A DNA stretch of 64,000 nucleotides from Acuticoccus mangrovi (GTDB lineage Bacteria > Pseudomonadota > Alphaproteobacteria > Rhizobiales > Amorphaceae), in NCBI RefSeq assembly GCF_016411865.1, contig NZ_JAEKJA010000007.1:124001-188000 (forward strand), given 5' to 3'. Numbering within the stretch: position 1 is the first letter of the stretch; the number at the start of each line of letters is the position of its first letter. The notes below the pieces were generated by a model, which was not told the origin of the DNA, ran no database searches, and saw only the letters and a list, made by a program, of their open reading frames with translations. Below, one piece after another: positions 43,279 through 63,015 of the stretch. Both the position numbers and the translations under genes were made by a program.

Positions 43279-43716
43279 TCAGCGCAGGCGGCGGAAGAAG
43301 TCGGCGAGGAGTTCGCTCGCCTCCGCCTCGGCGAAGCCGCCGTACACCTCGGGGCGATGGTGGATGGTCGGTTGGGAAAACAGCCGCACGCCGCTCTCGA
43401 CCGCCCCGGCCTTGGGGTCGAGCGCGCCAAAATAAAGTCGGCGGATCCTTGCCAACGCGATCGCGCCAGCACACATGGCGCAGGGCTCCAAAGTGACGTA
43501 TAGATCGCACCCCGTCAGCCGTTCTGACGCAAGTGCCGCGGCGGCGCGGCGAAGAGCCAGAAGCTCCGCGTGAGCGGTCGGGTCGGCATCGGTAATCGTG
43601 CGGTTGCCGGCGCTTGCGATCACCCGTCCGTCGCGCACCACGACAGCCCCGACAGGCACCTCGCCACGCGCCGCCGCCGCGCGCGCCTCGGCAAGGGCCA
43701 TGTCCATGAATGACAT
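43279..43716 (-). CDS. tadA: tRNA adenosine(34) deaminase
   Basis: The 145-residue protein has the cytidine/deoxycytidylate deaminase zinc site: H49-A-E51 in TAHAELLAL and C79-A-M-C82 in TLEPCAMCAGAI. EVPVGAVVVRDGRVIASAGNRTITDADPTAHAE is typical of TadA, which makes inosine at the wobble position of tRNA-Arg(ACG). It is divergent from the pseudouridine synthase gene, with 19 bases between starts, so both promoters overlap each other. Confidence 0.92.
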   Translation of the reverse strand: MSFMDMALAEARAAAARGEVPVGAVVVRDGRVIASAGNRTITDADPTAHAELLALRRAAAALASERLTGCDLYVTLEPCAMCAGAIALARIRRLYFGALDPKAGAVESGVRLFSQPTIHHRPEVYGGFAEAEASELLADFFRRLR

Positions 43717-43735: not shown

Positions 43736-46700
43736 ATGACCACGATCGATGACGACCGGCCCGCGGACGAGCCGCACACCCCCCGCGAAGGCGAGCGCGT
43801 CGCCAAGGTGATCGCACGCGCCGGCGTCGCCTCGCGGCGCGATGCCGAAGCGCTGATCGAGGCAGGGCGCGTGAAAGTCAATGGCGTGCGGCTCGAGACC
43901 CCGGCCGTCGTCGTCACCGACAAGGACGAGGTGCGCGTCGACAACGAGGTGATCCCGCAGCGTCTGCGCACCCGGGCCTGGCTCTTCAACAAGCCGAAGG
44001 GGCTCGTCACCACCAACCGCGACCCGGAGGGGCGTGGCACCGTGTTCGACGCTCTGCCGTCCTCGCTGCCGCGCGTCGTCACCGTGGGCCGGCTCGACAT
44101 CAACACCGAGGGGCTGCTCCTCCTCACCAACGACGGCGGCCTCGCCCGGGTGCTCGAGCTGCCGGCGACCGGGTGGACGCGCCGCTACCGCGCCCGCGTG
44201 CACGGCGAGATCGACGAGGCGCAACTCGCCGCGCTCGCCGAAGGCACCGCCGTCGACGGCGTGCTCTATGGTCCTATCGAGGTGACGGTCGACCGCGTCA
44301 CCGGCGACAATGGCTGGCTGACGGTGTCGCTGGCGGAGGGCAAGAACCGCGAGGTGAAGATCGTCCTCGGCTCGCTCGGGCTGCAGGTGACGCGGCTCAT
44401 CCGCATCTCCTTCGGTCCCTTCCAGCTCGGCGACCTGCCGCGCGGGGAGGTGAAGGAGATCCCGACCAAGCTCCTGAAGGATCAGCTCGGCCCGCGCCTG
44501 GCGGAAGAGGCGGGGGCCGACTTCGATTCGCCGGTGACGGCGCCGCCGCGTCGGGCGAAGCCCGTTGCGGCGACGGGTCGGGGGTCGGGCGAGCGCCCGG
44601 CGAAGCCGCGTCCGGTGCGGGACGGCGGTGGCGAGCGTCCCCGCCGGTCGGGTCGCTTCGGCGCGACCGACTCCGCCGACCGTGGGGCCCGTCGCACCGG
44701 AAGCCACCACACCGCCCCGAGCGGCGAGGGCCGCGACACGCGCTCCGACCGCCCGTGGCAGAAGCGCGAAGCTCGCGACGGCGCCGACCGCCCCTGGCAG
44801 AAGCGGGAGAACCGCGAAGGCGGCGACCGCCCCTGGCAGAAGCGTGAGAACCGCGAAGGCGGCGACCGCCCTTGGCAGAAGCGCGAGAGCCGCGAAGGCG
44901 GCGACCGACCCTGGCAGAAGCGCGAGAGCCGCGAAGGCGGTGACCGCCCCTGGCAGAAGCGCGAGAGCCGCGACGGCGGTGACCGCCCCTGGCAGAAGCG
45001 TGAGAGCCGCGACGGGGGTGACCGGCCCTGGCAGAAGCGCGAGAGCCCCGAAGGCGGTGAGCGCCCCTGGCAGAAGCGTGAGGGCCGCGAAGGTGACGAT
45101 CGGCAGAGAGAGCCGCGCGAGGGCGGCGATCGGCCCTGGCAGAAGCGCGAGAACCGCGAGGGCGGCGACCGGCCTTGGCAGAAGCGGGAGAATCGCGAGG
45201 GCGGCGACCGCCCGTGGCAGAAGCGGGAGAACCGCGAGGGCGGCGACCGCCCGTGGCAGAAGCGGGAGAATCGCGAGGGTGGCGACCGCCCGTGGCAGAA
45301 GCGGGAGAATCGCGAGGGTGGCGACCGCCCGTGGCAGAAGCGTGAGAACCGCGAAGGCGACGATCGGCCGTGGCAAAAGCGTGAAGACCGCGAAGGTGAC
45401 GATCGGCAGCGAGAGTCGCGTGAGGGCGGCGACCGGCCGTGGCAGAAGCGGGAGAACCGCGAGGGCGGCGACCGGCCCTGGCAGAAGCGGGAGAACCGTG
45501 AGGGCGGCGATCGGCCTTGGCAGAAGCGTGAGAGCCGCGAGGGCGGCGACCGGCCTTGGCAGAAGCGGGAGAACCGCGAGGGCGGCGATCGGCCGTGGCA
45601 GAAGCGGGAGAACCGCGAGGGCGGCGACCGGCCTTGGCAGAAGCGGGAGAACCGCGAGGGCGGCGATCGACCGTGGCAGAAGCGGGAGAACCGCGAGGGC
45701 GGCGACCGGCCTTGGCAGAAGCGGGAGAACCGCGAGGGCGGCGATCGACCGTGGCAGAAGCGGGAGAACCGCGAGGGCGGCGACCGGCCTTGGCAGAAGC
45801 GGGAGAACCGCGAGGGCGGCGATCGACCGTGGCAGAAGCGGGAGAACCGCGAGGGCGGCGACCGGCCTTGGCAGAAGCGGGAGAACCGCGAGGGCGGCGA
45901 TCGACCGTGGCAGAAGCGGGAGAACCGCGAGGGCGGCGACCGGCCTTGGCAGAAGCGGGAGAACCGCGAGGGCGGCGATCGACCGTGGCAGAAGCGGGAG
46001 AACCGCGAGGGCGGCGACCGGCCTTGGCAGAAGCGGGAGAACCGCGAGGGCGGCGATCGACCGTGGCAGAAGCGGGAGAACCGCGAGGGCGGCGACCGGC
46101 CTTGGCAGAAGCGGGAGAACCGCGAGGGCGGCGATCGACCGTGGCAGAAGCGGGAGAACCGCGAGGGCGGCGACCGGCCTTGGCAGAAGCGGGAGAACCG
46201 CGAGGGCGGCGATCGACCGTGGCAGAAGCGGGAGAACCGCGAGGGCGGCGACCGGCCTTGGCAGAAGCGGGAGAACCGCGAGGGCGGCGATCGACCGTGG
46301 CAGAAGCGGGAGAACCGCGAGGGCGGCGACCGGCCTTGGCAGAAGCGGGAGAACCGCGAGGGCGGCGATCGACCGTGGCAGAAGCGGGAGAACCGCGAGG
46401 GCGGCGACCGGCCTTGGCAGAAGCGGGAGAACCGCGAGGGCGGCGATCGGCCTTGGCAGAAGCGGGAGAGCCGCGAAGGCGGCGACCGGTCGGAGCCGCA
46501 GGGCGAAGGCGGCGGGCGGTCTTGGCAGAAGCGCGAGGGGAGCGGCGGTGGCGGCCGGTCGTGGCAGCGGCGTGAGGGGGGCGAAGGCGCCGCCCGCGCG
46601 TCGCGGAGCTCGCGGCCGAAGGGAGGCGACAGCGCCCGCGCGTCGTTCAAGCCGAAGGGCGCCAAGTCGACGGGTACCAAGTCGACGGGCGCCAAGCCGA

Positions 46701-46750
46701 GCCGCGCCGGCGGGCGCGACGGCGCGTCCGGTCGCCCTCGCAAGCGCTGA
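43736..46750 (+). CDS. rluB: 23S rRNA pseudouridine synthase (RluB family) with a giant repeat tail
   Basis: The 1,004-residue protein has a normal RluB-type enzyme at residues 1-260: an S4 RNA-binding domain (ERVAKVIARAGVASRRDAEALI), then the RsuA-family catalytic domain with D121 in GRLDINTEGLLLLTNDG. RluB makes pseudouridine 2605 in 23S rRNA. From about residue 338 to 916 come 43 copies of a 13-residue unit (DRPWQKRENREGG and variants) plus two shorter 10-residue units, then RSWQKRE-type copies and a Lys/Gly/Ser-rich end. The tail is a charged, low-complexity, probably disordered RNA-binding region. Related proteins often have basic tails of 50-200 residues; this one is exceptionally long. 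Confidence 0.9.
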   Translation: MTTIDDDRPADEPHTPREGERVAKVIARAGVASRRDAEALIEAGRVKVNGVRLETPAVVVTDKDEVRVDNEVIPQRLRTRAWLFNKPKGLVTTNRDPEGRGTVFDALPSSLPRVVTVGRLDINTEGLLLLTNDGGLARVLELPATGWTRRYRARVHGEIDEAQLAALAEGTAVDGVLYGPIEVTVDRVTGDNGWLTVSLAEGKNREVKIVLGSLGLQVTRLIRISFGPFQLGDLPRGEVKEIPTKLLKDQLGPRLAEEAGADFDSPVTAPPRRAKPVAATGRGSGERPAKPRPVRDGGGERPRRSGRFGATDSADRGARRTGSHHTAPSGEGRDTRSDRPWQKREARDGADRPWQKRENREGGDRPWQKRENREGGDRPWQKRESREGGDRPWQKRESREGGDRPWQKRESRDGGDRPWQKRESRDGGDRPWQKRESPEGGERPWQKREGREGDDRQREPREGGDRPWQKRENREGGDRPWQKRENREGGDRPWQKRENREGGDRPWQKRENREGGDRPWQKRENREGGDRPWQKRENREGDDRPWQKREDREGDDRQRESREGGDRPWQKRENREGGDRPWQKRENREGGDRPWQKRESREGGDRPWQKRENREGGDRPWQKRENREGGDRPWQKRENREGGDRPWQKRENREGGDRPWQKRENREGGDRPWQKRENREGGDRPWQKRENREGGDRPWQKRENREGGDRPWQKRENREGGDRPWQKRENREGGDRPWQKRENREGGDRPWQKRENREGGDRPWQKRENREGGDRPWQKRENREGGDRPWQKRENREGGDRPWQKRENREGGDRPWQKRENREGGDRPWQKRENREGGDRPWQKRENREGGDRPWQKRENREGGDRPWQKRENREGGDRPWQKRENREGGDRPWQKRENREGGDRPWQKRESREGGDRSEPQGEGGGRSWQKREGSGGGGRSWQRREGGEGAARASRSSRPKGGDSARASFKPKGAKSTGTKSTGAKPSRAGGRDGASGRPRKR
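44747..46483 (+). repeat. 39-base tandem repeats inside rluB
   Basis: Forty-three 39-base units and two 30-base short units account exactly for these 1,737 bases. The units differ mainly at synonymous and a few Asn/Ser/Asp sites. Between 45626 and 46405 a 78-base dimer is repeated ten times with no visible difference, alternating GACCGGCCTTGG and GATCGACCGTGG as first bases. This block must have expanded recently. All units keep the reading frame. Confidence 0.95.
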
Positions 46751-46812
46751 GCCGATGAGCCGGCAGCGCGCGCCTCTTCGGGGCGCCGGGGCGGTGCGGC
46801 GGAGCGGCTGAC

Positions 46813-47367
46813 GTGCGCATCGTCGGCGGCAGCCATCGCGGCACCTCGCTGGTCGCCCCGCGCGGCGACCGCACCCGCCCCACCACCGACCGGATGCGCG
46901 AGACGGTGTTCAACATCATCGCCCATCGCCACGGCGAAGCACTGCGCGACGGGCGCGTGCTCGACCTCTTCGCCGGCAGCGGGGCGCTCGGGCTGGAGGC
47001 GCTGTCGCGCGGGGCGAGCTTCGCCCTCTTCGTGGAGACGGCCACCGAGGCGCGCGCCGCGATCCGCCGCAACGTCGAGGCGCTGGGCGCGCTCGGCCGC
47101 ACGCGGGTGTGGCGGCGCGACGCCACCAAGCCGGGTCCGTGCCCCGTCGCCCCGTTCACCCTCGTCTTCTGCGATCCGCCCTACGGCCACGGCCTCGGCG
47201 AGGCGGCCCTCGCGGCGGTGGCGGATGCGGGATGGCTCGCCCCCGGGGCGATCGCGGTGCTCGAGGAGCGCGCCGATCGCCTGCCCGAGGAGATCCGGGG
47301 CTTCGAGCGCCTCGACCAGCGCACCATCGGCGACAGCGCCATCGCGATCTTCGCCCTCGTCGGCTGA
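46813..47367 (+). CDS. rsmD: 16S rRNA (guanine(966)-N(2))-methyltransferase
   Basis: The GTG start gives 184 residues, the usual length. MRIVGGSHRGTSLVAPRGDRTRPTTDRMRETVFNII is the standard RsmD opening. The SAM motif DLFAGSGALGLEALSRGA spans residues 51-68 and the catalytic D121-PPY is in VFCDPPYGHG. It methylates G966 of 16S rRNA. It stands 62 bases after rluB, a common neighbour in Alphaproteobacteria. A palindrome (GGCCGG-GCGC-CCGGCC at 47376-47391) lies between it and the convergent nitrile hydratase genes. Confidence 0.93.
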   Translation: MRIVGGSHRGTSLVAPRGDRTRPTTDRMRETVFNIIAHRHGEALRDGRVLDLFAGSGALGLEALSRGASFALFVETATEARAAIRRNVEALGALGRTRVWRRDATKPGPCPVAPFTLVFCDPPYGHGLGEAALAAVADAGWLAPGAIAVLEERADRLPEEIRGFERLDQRTIGDSAIAIFALVG

Positions 47368-61801: not shown

Positions 61802-63015
61802 TCGCCTCCGCTGCCGCTCGCCTCACCGCCGCCGGAGCGGCTCTCGTCACCGCCGCCGGAGCGGCTCTCGTCACCGCCGCCGGAGCGGCTCTCGTCACCG
61901 CCGCCGGAGCGGCTCGCGGCATTGCCGCGAGAGCGGCTCACGTCATTGCCGCGAGAGCGGCTCACGTTAGTGCCGCGAGAGCGGCCTGTATCCGCGCTGC
62001 GGGAGCGGCTCTCGTCCTCTGCGCGGGAGCGGTTCTCGTCGTCCCGGGGGCGGCTCTCGCCGAGCCCGTCAGCCTGCGGACGCGGCAGATCGACACCTTC
62101 CGTCCGAGCCCCGACGAGGCCGATCGCCTCGCCTTCATGGGCGGCCTGGTGCTCAACGGGCCGCACGGCTTCGGCGGCTTCTCCGGCCTCCTGACCGAAG
62201 GGGAGCGCTTTCTCGCCGTCAGCGACACCGGGTTCTGGCTCACCGGCCGCATGCTCCTCGACGGCGGCCGGCTCACCGGGGTGGCGGACACCGACATCGT
62301 CCGCCGCGTCGACCTCGCCGGCCGACCGATCACCGACAAGGAGACGGGCGACGCCGAGGCGCTCACCCGGCACGGCGACGGCATCCTCGCCGCGCAGGAG
62401 CACAGCGGCGACCTCCTTCTCTACCCGGCCGACGGTCTCGCGATCCGTCCCGGACCGCCGCGGCGGCTGCCGGCGGCCTCGGCCCTGCGCCTCGGTGCCC
62501 GCAGCAACGGGCTCGAGGCGCTCGCCACGCTGCCCGACGGCACCGTGCTGATCTTCCTCGAGGGCAAGGCGAAGACCGGCCCGTCGATCCCCGCCTTTCG
62601 CGATCCGGGCGTTCCCTTCCGCGTGCCGCGCCACGGCGACTGGTCGATCACCGGGGCCGATGCGCTCCCCGGCGGTGACGTGCTGATCGTGGAGCGGCGC
62701 TACGGCGGCGGGCTCGACGTGGGGCTGCGGGTGCGCCGCCTCGGCGCCGACGCCGTCCGCGCGGGCCGCGACGTCGACGGTCCGGTGCTGCTCGACGCCG
62801 ACTTCTCGGCCGAGATCGACAACATGGAAGCGATCTCGGCGGAGGTGGTGGACGGCGAGATCCTCCTCACCCTGATGTCGGACGACAACCTCTCCTTCCT
62901 CCAGCGCACCCTCATGTTGCGATTTCGGGTGAGCGACCCGCGCCCGCGGCCCAAGCCCCTTGTTCGGGCGGGGGAAAACCGAGTGCACGTCGGCATGCCG
63001 AAGGATGCGGGCTGA
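61798..63015 (+). CDS. Esterase-like/phytase-like exported protein with repeat-built signal peptide, start uncertain
   Basis: The frame is open across the cobT end and continues to 63015. The mature part from [33 protein letters not shown] is typical of the esterase-like-activity-of-phytase family (a beta-propeller type), with [30 protein letters not shown]. Upstream lies an Ala/Val-rich hydrophobic stretch encoded by ten 24-base repeats, acting as the export signal. No ATG, GTG or TTG exists between the cobT end and the mature domain in this frame. The CTG at 61798 (overlapping the cobT TGA) or an ATT at 61921 or 61945 are the only near-canonical options. Confidence 0.65.
61825..62064 (+). 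repeat. 24-base tandem repeats coding an Ala-rich signal sequence
   Basis: Ten 24-base periods run from 61825 to 62064. The first three are identical; the later ones diverge but retain the core GAGCGGCTC. In the coding frame each gives an 8-residue unit such as TAAGAALV. The array covers the whole signal-peptide region of the downstream esterase-like gene. Confidence 0.9.

Follow-up and report, generated by a model that had tools for sequence, protein, structure and literature searches.

A tandem-repeat tail on an RluB-type pseudouridine synthase of Acuticoccus mangrovi as an extreme case of a recurrent feature

Introduction

RluB of Escherichia coli is the 23S ribosomal RNA (rRNA) pseudouridine 2605 synthase, a protein of about 290 amino acids (its family model, NF007976, has 291 positions) with a short tail. 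It has been reported among the precursor particles that build up in the absence of RlmE (PMC11194073) and, in an RNase E mutant, with 50S-like and 40S particles (PMC9848016), and the title of PDB entry 9cl9 places it on an intermediate. Here we analyse a gene for an enzyme of this type from Acuticoccus mangrovi, encoded in a stretch of 64,000 nucleotides that we call the window (assembly GCF_016411865.1, contig NZ_JAEKJA010000007.1, positions 124,001 to 188,000, forward strand). Its product shares with E. coli RluB the S4 domain, the catalytic domain and the aspartate of the GRLD motif, but, unlike it, has a long C-terminal tail, which is built largely of a short unit repeated in tandem. Comparison of sequences shows that this array does not stand alone: it is the extreme example of a feature that recurs among RluB-type enzymes and has been little described.

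Two reports, both concerned with typing markers, describe tandem repeats in genes of this kind. In Bacteroides fragilis, the locus TR8 is a tandem repeat in the gene for ribosomal large subunit pseudouridine synthase B, and its copy number varies, with three repeat numbers among 50 isolates (K = 3) (PMC7585543). The 102-bp (base pair) unit printed there has two stop-free frames, one of which reads RFNSEGGDRPQRSYGDRPQRPSYNREGGDRPYRP; the other is hydrophobic and we judge it less likely, the paper printing no frame. In the frame we chose, TR8 shares with the window array an EGGDRP idiom (three DRP, two of them within EGGDRP), but it consists of four copies of 34 amino acids and has Tyr instead of Trp. 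Bacteroides fragilis belongs to another phylum, and its RluB repeat is therefore most likely independent. In Ralstonia, a typing locus with three to six copies lies in an unspecified pseudouridine synthase (PMC12366337). Besides these two papers, the open-access literature searched yielded no account of such tails across the RluB enzymes, a weak absence since subscription papers mostly fall outside it. A further point of comparison is the C-terminal region of alphaproteobacterial RNase E, which underlies bacterial ribonucleoprotein bodies (BR-bodies): it too is a long, charged tail, belonging to an enzyme of RNA from the same bacterial class, and is disordered as the window tail is predicted to be; its condensate formation has been tested by experiment.

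Results

A preliminary description of the window, made from its letters alone, had counted 43 full repeats of 39 bp and two short ones of 30 bp, encoding a tail of about 580 residues. Reading the array unit by unit confirms this count at 44747-46483 (Table 1), with 579 amino acids encoded, and Tandem Repeats Finder reports the array independently (44746-46489, period 39, 45.2 copies, 88% matches) with a score of 2450, against 243 for the second-best array in the window. The autocorrelation score of the tail is 484, as opposed to 6 or less in ten shuffles of the same tail, and chance is therefore excluded. The array contains 134 Arg, 43 Lys, 88 Glu, 51 Asp and 43 Trp, and in the consensus unit three Arg and one Lys are evenly interleaved with three acidic residues and one Trp. 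A degenerate RPWQKRE pattern has 43 matches in the organism's own 5.46-Mb assembly (97% complete), all within the array, and the reversed control pattern has none there; nor was a second copy of the array seen in this genome, the sole match outside the gene having an E-value of 0.8. Units 1-23 carry scattered changes; the exceptions are units 14 and 15, which match each other, and unit 22, which matches one of the two variants found further along. In units 24-44 two variants alternate strictly, and this perfect 78-bp dimer block is therefore read as a recent expansion, which probably grew in 78-bp steps.

Differences between neighbouring units of the window array fall at the first, second and third codon positions 22, 23 and 137 times, respectively, which gives a ratio of nonsynonymous to synonymous differences (pN/pS) of 0.12; the other two forward frames give 4.8 and 2.4. 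As the differences are mostly synonymous, the unit peptide is under purifying selection, and R2, P3, W4, Q5, K6, R7, E8 and G12 are constant in all 43 full units. Across the 14 arrays examined pN/pS ranges from 0.02 to 0.64 (highest in locus L035), with 0.02-0.26 in seven other members of the genus. Because duplication copies changes along with the units, we added a count of minimal events, taking for each codon column the path with the most nonsynonymous steps, which is the conservative choice. This set also held 14 arrays, 12 of them common to the pN/pS set (L035 and L072 are not in it). The window array gave 15 synonymous and 10 nonsynonymous events (P = 3.8e-5), and 12 of the other 13 arrays had P <= 0.013, L117 not reaching significance (8 to 10, P = 0.066). 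As a rule, then, purifying selection protects the peptide that the unit encodes at present, while the units turn over between species. Since 39 is divisible by 3, the array is open in several frames and on both strands, and a 902-amino-acid antisense open frame (44482-47190, minus strand) spans all of it. Genes in the antisense or other frames were considered and rejected, 137 of the 182 substitutions lying at third positions of the RluB frame.

We compared 201 tails (199 distinct, L004/L114 and L005/L119 being identical pairs), a tail comprising all residues past the position aligned with core residue 249. The sample consisted of the window, the 80 closest named loci, stretches from 20 relatives (seven of the genus, two of the family and 11 of the order), two sets of 20 from the class (one selected for its long open frames, one of other members) and 60 Pseudomonadota from outside the Alphaproteobacteria; a tandem repeat was called where the autocorrelation score reached 20 or more and was no less than double the highest value in ten shuffles. 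The length of the window tail, which had been singled out as striking, proves to be the greatest among the 201 (755 amino acids; next 713). It is also the most repetitive tail, the next autocorrelation score being 220, and the sole Trp-rich one, with 45 Trp against 6 in the runner-up.

Repeats were found in all seven genus mates (two of these arrays cut by contig ends), in neither of the two family members and in six of the 11 order tails, a fraction that is not a rate, as these tails were hand-picked and skewed to long frames. Among the closest named loci, which are the best 80 of at least 546 confirmed relatives and are rich in Mesorhizobium, nine had repeats, two of them duplicates of genus rows. 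The long-frame class members contributed seven of 20. The other class members, hand-picked as about every third of the first 66 class rows listed, contributed none of 20, an underestimate because the longest frames had already been moved to the long-frame set. Outside the Alphaproteobacteria repeats were found in six of the 60 tails, which come from 93 genomes with a listed match (103 were searched) and, at 29-47% identity, may include RsuA-, RluE- or RluF-type paralogues. The median complete tail measured 535 amino acids in the genus, 325.5 in the family, 363 in the order, 216 in the closest named loci, 204 in the long-frame class set, 33.5 in the other class members and 34.5 outside the Alphaproteobacteria. 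Open-frame length is a misleading guide to tail length, for six of the 20 long frames had tails shorter than 60 amino acids, the excess lying upstream of the core. The preliminary description had named homologues with short, unexpanded tails as one of the findings that would speak against it; within the genus the expansion stands, with arrays in all seven other genomes, but most of the distant homologues sampled are indeed short-tailed.

The genus is that of Acuticoccus yangtzensis and was represented by eight genomes, the window's included. The nearest named relatives are a metagenome-assembled genome (82% core identity) and A. yangtzensis (76% core identity), whose sequence is identical to that of genus mate G002, so that in the grouping used the window falls in its genus. 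Although the cores are 73-87% identical within the genus, the unit sequences differ, and the arrays of the seven mates have periods of 30, 13, 14, 30, 19, 28 and 45 amino acids, the last two being cut by contig ends and holding 2.8 and 1.8 copies only. The longest peptide common to the window tail and any genus tail measures 6-9 amino acids and belongs in part to a conserved stretch that follows the core. In 14 of 45 pairs of genus and family tails, and not in the other 31, the longest shared peptide exceeds the highest value from 20 shuffles, and homology between the tails has thus been retained in part; the longer shared peptides lie partly just after the core and in some cases elsewhere, such as one of 12 amino acids between G003 and G005. 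BLASTP aligns the window tail with that of G007 at 32% identity with many gaps, and we judge this similarity to be compositional beyond the first 20 or so residues. An identical 18-amino-acid motif precedes three different arrays, in G002, G003 and G005; the flank therefore looks homologous and the array replaced, and we infer that recombination did the replacing.

The tails share a chemistry. Among the complete tails of at least 100 amino acids (n = 125, including the window and one duplicate) the median charged fraction is 0.40 (5-95%: 0.29-0.47) and the median net charge +0.10 per residue; shorter tails (20-99 amino acids, n = 41) are more basic, with a median of +0.19 per residue. Of the 34 consensus units, 18 contain the motif [DE]RP, where shuffling predicts 5.0, and none of 1000 shuffles reached 18, a significance to be read as an upper estimate because some of the 34 units come from close relatives and are not independent (for example L072/L076/L080/L124, L203/L204/L207 and L146-L148). 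The tails of L146, L147 and L148 have RGG/FGG-like repeats of 34, 34 and 24 amino acids, preceded in L146 by an acidic segment. A motif of the type VWxAPG[AG][RK][PA] lies inside the variable tails of 56 of the 80 closest loci (L004-L083), as exact NVWMAPGARP in 42 of them, and looks like a conserved binding motif; it was not found in the window tail or in the nine genus and family tails.

By sequence and modelled fold alike, the gene product is an ordinary RluB-type 23S rRNA pseudouridine synthase, with an activity predicted from these resemblances. The S4 domain and the GRLD aspartate, both present, fit the RsuA/RluB/RluE/RluF synthases, and the subfamily model TIGR00093 scores 122.2 bits, above its curated cut-off of 109.3. 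Asp121 of the GRLD motif, which we take to be the catalytic residue, is unchanged in all 39 aligned sequences. NF007976, the equivalog model for RluB (23S U2605), gives 156.9 bits, the top score among the specific models listed (RluF 78.6, RsuA 62.7, RluE 58.8 bits) but below its cut-off of 290, and "RluB-type" is therefore the safer name. The closest solved sequences are those of E. coli RluB (4lab, E = 1.6e-42; 9cl9, E = 2.8e-42). The best fold match of the core model is 4lgt, RluB with its RNA (Z 25.1, root-mean-square deviation (rmsd) 2.9, 241 aligned residues, 39% identity), with which RluF 3dh3 is tied within 1 (Z 24.4); the model also matches 9cl9, entitled "WT 12C IM fraction, B-b3 with RluB bound" (Z 18.5, rmsd 2.9, 245 aligned). 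The RluB-type identity first proposed is thus upheld by family profiles, solved relatives and fold, and the core was found to span about 250 residues, near the 260 or so given at first.

AlphaFold2, run with 39 sequences, gave ten-residue blocks of predicted local distance difference test (pLDDT) scores of 85-97 over residues 21-250 and of 33-45 from residue 271 to 1000. A helix extends to residue 258, no secondary structure follows, and pLDDT is mostly below 50 from residue 268. We read the tail as disordered on this model.

Table 1. Positions of the gene, its parts and its neighbours in the window
Feature	Position	Strand	Evidence
RluB-type pseudouridine synthase coding sequence, 1004 amino acids	43736..46750	+	Open reading frame; RluB, RsuA, RluF family matches
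S4 RNA-binding domain, residues 21-66	43796..43933	+	PF01479, E 1.6e-10, 40.9 bits, cut-off 22.8
Pseudouridine synthase catalytic domain, residues 82-211	43979..44368	+	PF00849, E 3.1e-12, 47.4 bits, cut-off 26.8
Asp121 of GRLD motif, presumed catalytic aspartate	44096..44098	+	Alignment with GRLD of E. coli RluB (PDB 4lab)
Non-repetitive start of tail, residues 250-337	44483..44746	+	Unit-by-unit reading
Array, 43 x 39 bp + 2 x 30 bp units, consensus DRPWQKRENREGG	44747..46483	+	Unit reading, Tandem Repeats Finder
Diverged 5' portion, units 1-23	44747..45625	+	Unit table
Short unit 10 (10 amino acids), without PWQK segment	45098..45127	+	Unit-by-unit reading
Short unit 18 (10 amino acids), without PWQK segment	45401..45430	+	Unit-by-unit reading
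Units 24-44, perfect 78-bp dimer higher-order repeat	45626..46444	+	Identity 1.000 at lag 78 bp over 819 bp
Degenerate units and basic C-terminal end	46484..46747	+	Net charge +15 over 88 amino acids
Neighbour: TadA-like tRNA adenosine deaminase	43279..43716	-	PF14437 E 3.3e-37; NF008113 148.4 bits, just below cut-off 150
Neighbour: RsmD, 16S rRNA G966 methyltransferase	46813..47367	+	TIGR00095 142.5 bits, cut-off 117.5

Discussion

We suggest that the tail could be a flexible, disordered, multivalent tether to RNA or to pre-50S particles, a proposal whose chances we regard as about even. The long C-terminal arm would act as a flexible tether on the enzyme core, making many weak, low-specificity contacts with RNA through Arg and Trp, and the acidic residues would keep the arm soluble and the contacts reversible, so that the enzyme may be held near pre-50S particles or other RNA. 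The targets of selection would then be composition and a short motif, and to a lesser degree any single fixed sequence, and unequal recombination or slippage could therefore make the unit longer or shorter, or exchange it for another, lineage by lineage. Speaking for the tether are the modelled disorder, the purifying selection on the unit peptide, the turnover of units in the genus, the shared composition and [DE]RP motif, and the reported presence of E. coli RluB in the particles named in the Introduction. Binding of RNA by the tail, first raised in the preliminary description, is plausible. A number of observations weigh against the tether. Re-expression of E. coli RluB in a strain without ten modification enzymes is reported to have rescued neither growth nor the 50S/sucrose-gradient profile (PMC11194073). 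Most homologues sampled outside the order are short-tailed (medians of 34.5 amino acids outside the Alphaproteobacteria, n = 60, and 33.5 in the class, n = 20), from which it follows that the arm is not needed for catalysis. The array has a net charge of only about +0.07 per residue, and its affinity for RNA may therefore be low. The long tails of L146-L148 are net negative, unlike nearly all others, which sits poorly with a general role in RNA binding. An aromatic residue stands beside Arg or Lys in 26 of the 34 consensus units across arrays, just as in shuffles (26.0). Finally, low pLDDT is not proof of disorder.

The chief alternative to the tether is that a permissive disordered end has been invaded by GC-rich repeats and serves no positive function, the arrays expanding and contracting through recombination and selection only purging variants that aggregate, shift the frame or misfold. 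This would account well for the recent expansion seen in the perfect 819-bp block, for units that differ across the genus despite similar cores and leave the window tail sharing peptides of at most 6-9 amino acids, and for the lack of arrays in most homologues sampled outside the genus. We nevertheless consider it rather unlikely, as the purifying selection on the unit peptide, with eight positions kept in 43 of 43 full units, exceeds bare tolerance, as tail composition and the [DE]RP motif recur across arrays, and as arrays are kept in all eight genomes of the genus. Also to be weighed is the proposal of the preliminary description that the tail could serve as a condensate or ribosome-assembly scaffold; evenly spaced Trp, with Arg, would act as stickers and RluB would form a phase-separating ribosome-assembly body. 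Trp does recur every 13 residues among Arg and Lys, and RNase E condensates of Alphaproteobacteria are reported to depend on the C-terminal disordered region (PMC12691583). The charges of RNase E, however, are described as alternating patches on which its condensates depend (PMC12691583), and such patches are not seen in the array; here the charges are mixed evenly, with a value at five residues of 0.049 against 0.107 in shuffles of the same composition (standard deviation 0.010), and the variance of charge between windows is lower than in any of 300 shuffles at 5, 10, 20 and 40 residues. Moreover, no other tail examined is Trp-rich, and the sticker idea would therefore be private to the window's species, and a limited search of open-access papers for BR-bodies together with a pseudouridine synthase gave no relevant passage. 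The scaffold thus gained no specific support, and we hold it to be quite improbable.

Two further explanations concern the form of the array and its length. The array might fold as a regular beta structure, with a strand WQKRENR and a turn EGGDRP, akin to the C-terminal repeats of RDM3/KTF1, a plant protein family. The Pfam model RDM3_C matches residues 477-664 (E = 1.5e-17, 64.7 bits, cut-off 35) and neither of two permuted-unit controls, so composition and periodicity alone are no explanation; in addition, the best AlphaFold2 model of 15 units, run as a single sequence, bears strands at a mean pLDDT of 68.6. The other four such models, however, reached 38-46, the tail is all coil when homologues are included, and a comparison of the 15-unit model with solved structures gave no hit at E <= 0.001 (the best Foldseek hit, at E = 0.026, was treated as meaningless). 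RDM3_C matched none of the seven other homologues' tails scanned, and unit lengths vary, being 13 and 10 amino acids within the window array and 13-45 in the genus. AlphaFold2 is furthermore reported to model random sequences, when these are perfectly repeated, as solenoids that are not realistic (PMC11795689). With the other tails unmatched, the multi-sequence model in coil and this habit on record, we rejected a relationship to RDM3 or to beta-solenoids, a regular fold of this kind being barely credible, and the significant match of the window array is best read as a resemblance. The remaining explanation, an assembly error that made the array longer or shorter than it is in the cell, would concern units 22-44 only; unit 45 and most of units 1-23 are individually recognisable by their variants and are safe regardless. 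The number of units in the block of units 24-44 is the one point not secured and the least secure part of the count, as 819 bp of perfect repeat is longer than short reads, and in two genus mates (L119 and L120) the contig ends inside the array. Assemblers of short reads are prone to leaving such blocks broken or collapsed rather than enlarged, which argues against an inflated count, and if short reads were used here a count that is too low is more likely than one that is too high. Two genus mates assembled in six and seven contigs (G003 and G007) carry uncut arrays, and we regard an erroneous copy number as very unlikely. The sequence L119 is the same as the A. yangtzensis locus L005, whose genome was obtained from PE150 Illumina reads (PMC5747140). 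Judging by the contig stops in L119 and L120, genomes assembled from short reads probably carry this gene truncated or at a wrong length.

It is tempting to extend the tether to RluB tails in general, as a repeatedly reinvented, tunable RNA-contacting arm in which the array would set length and valency, the unit would be replaced while its chemistry is selected, and copy number would dial ribosome assembly, although we think this broad form unlikely. If it were true, the Trp-rich array of the window would be an extreme setting of the arm, and should the tail adjust how firmly the enzyme holds to ribosome precursors, a change in copy number would give evolution a simple dial for ribosome assembly. 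The genus makes the evolution of a disordered region observable, with a conserved core as reference and, in the same place in all eight genomes, arrays made of different units. With purifying selection inside nearly every array tested, it becomes a testable question what stays conserved when the sequence of a disordered tail does not.

Other readings of the window were also screened. For RNA elements, no Rfam family reached its gathering score anywhere in the window, and PADLOC gave no match for defence genes. A second, 24-bp tandem array (61816-62059, plus strand) lies just upstream of a phytase-like esterase domain (PF13449); in the frame of that domain it encodes an Ala-rich stretch that runs into an apparent signal peptide, and could be a repeat-expanded leader.

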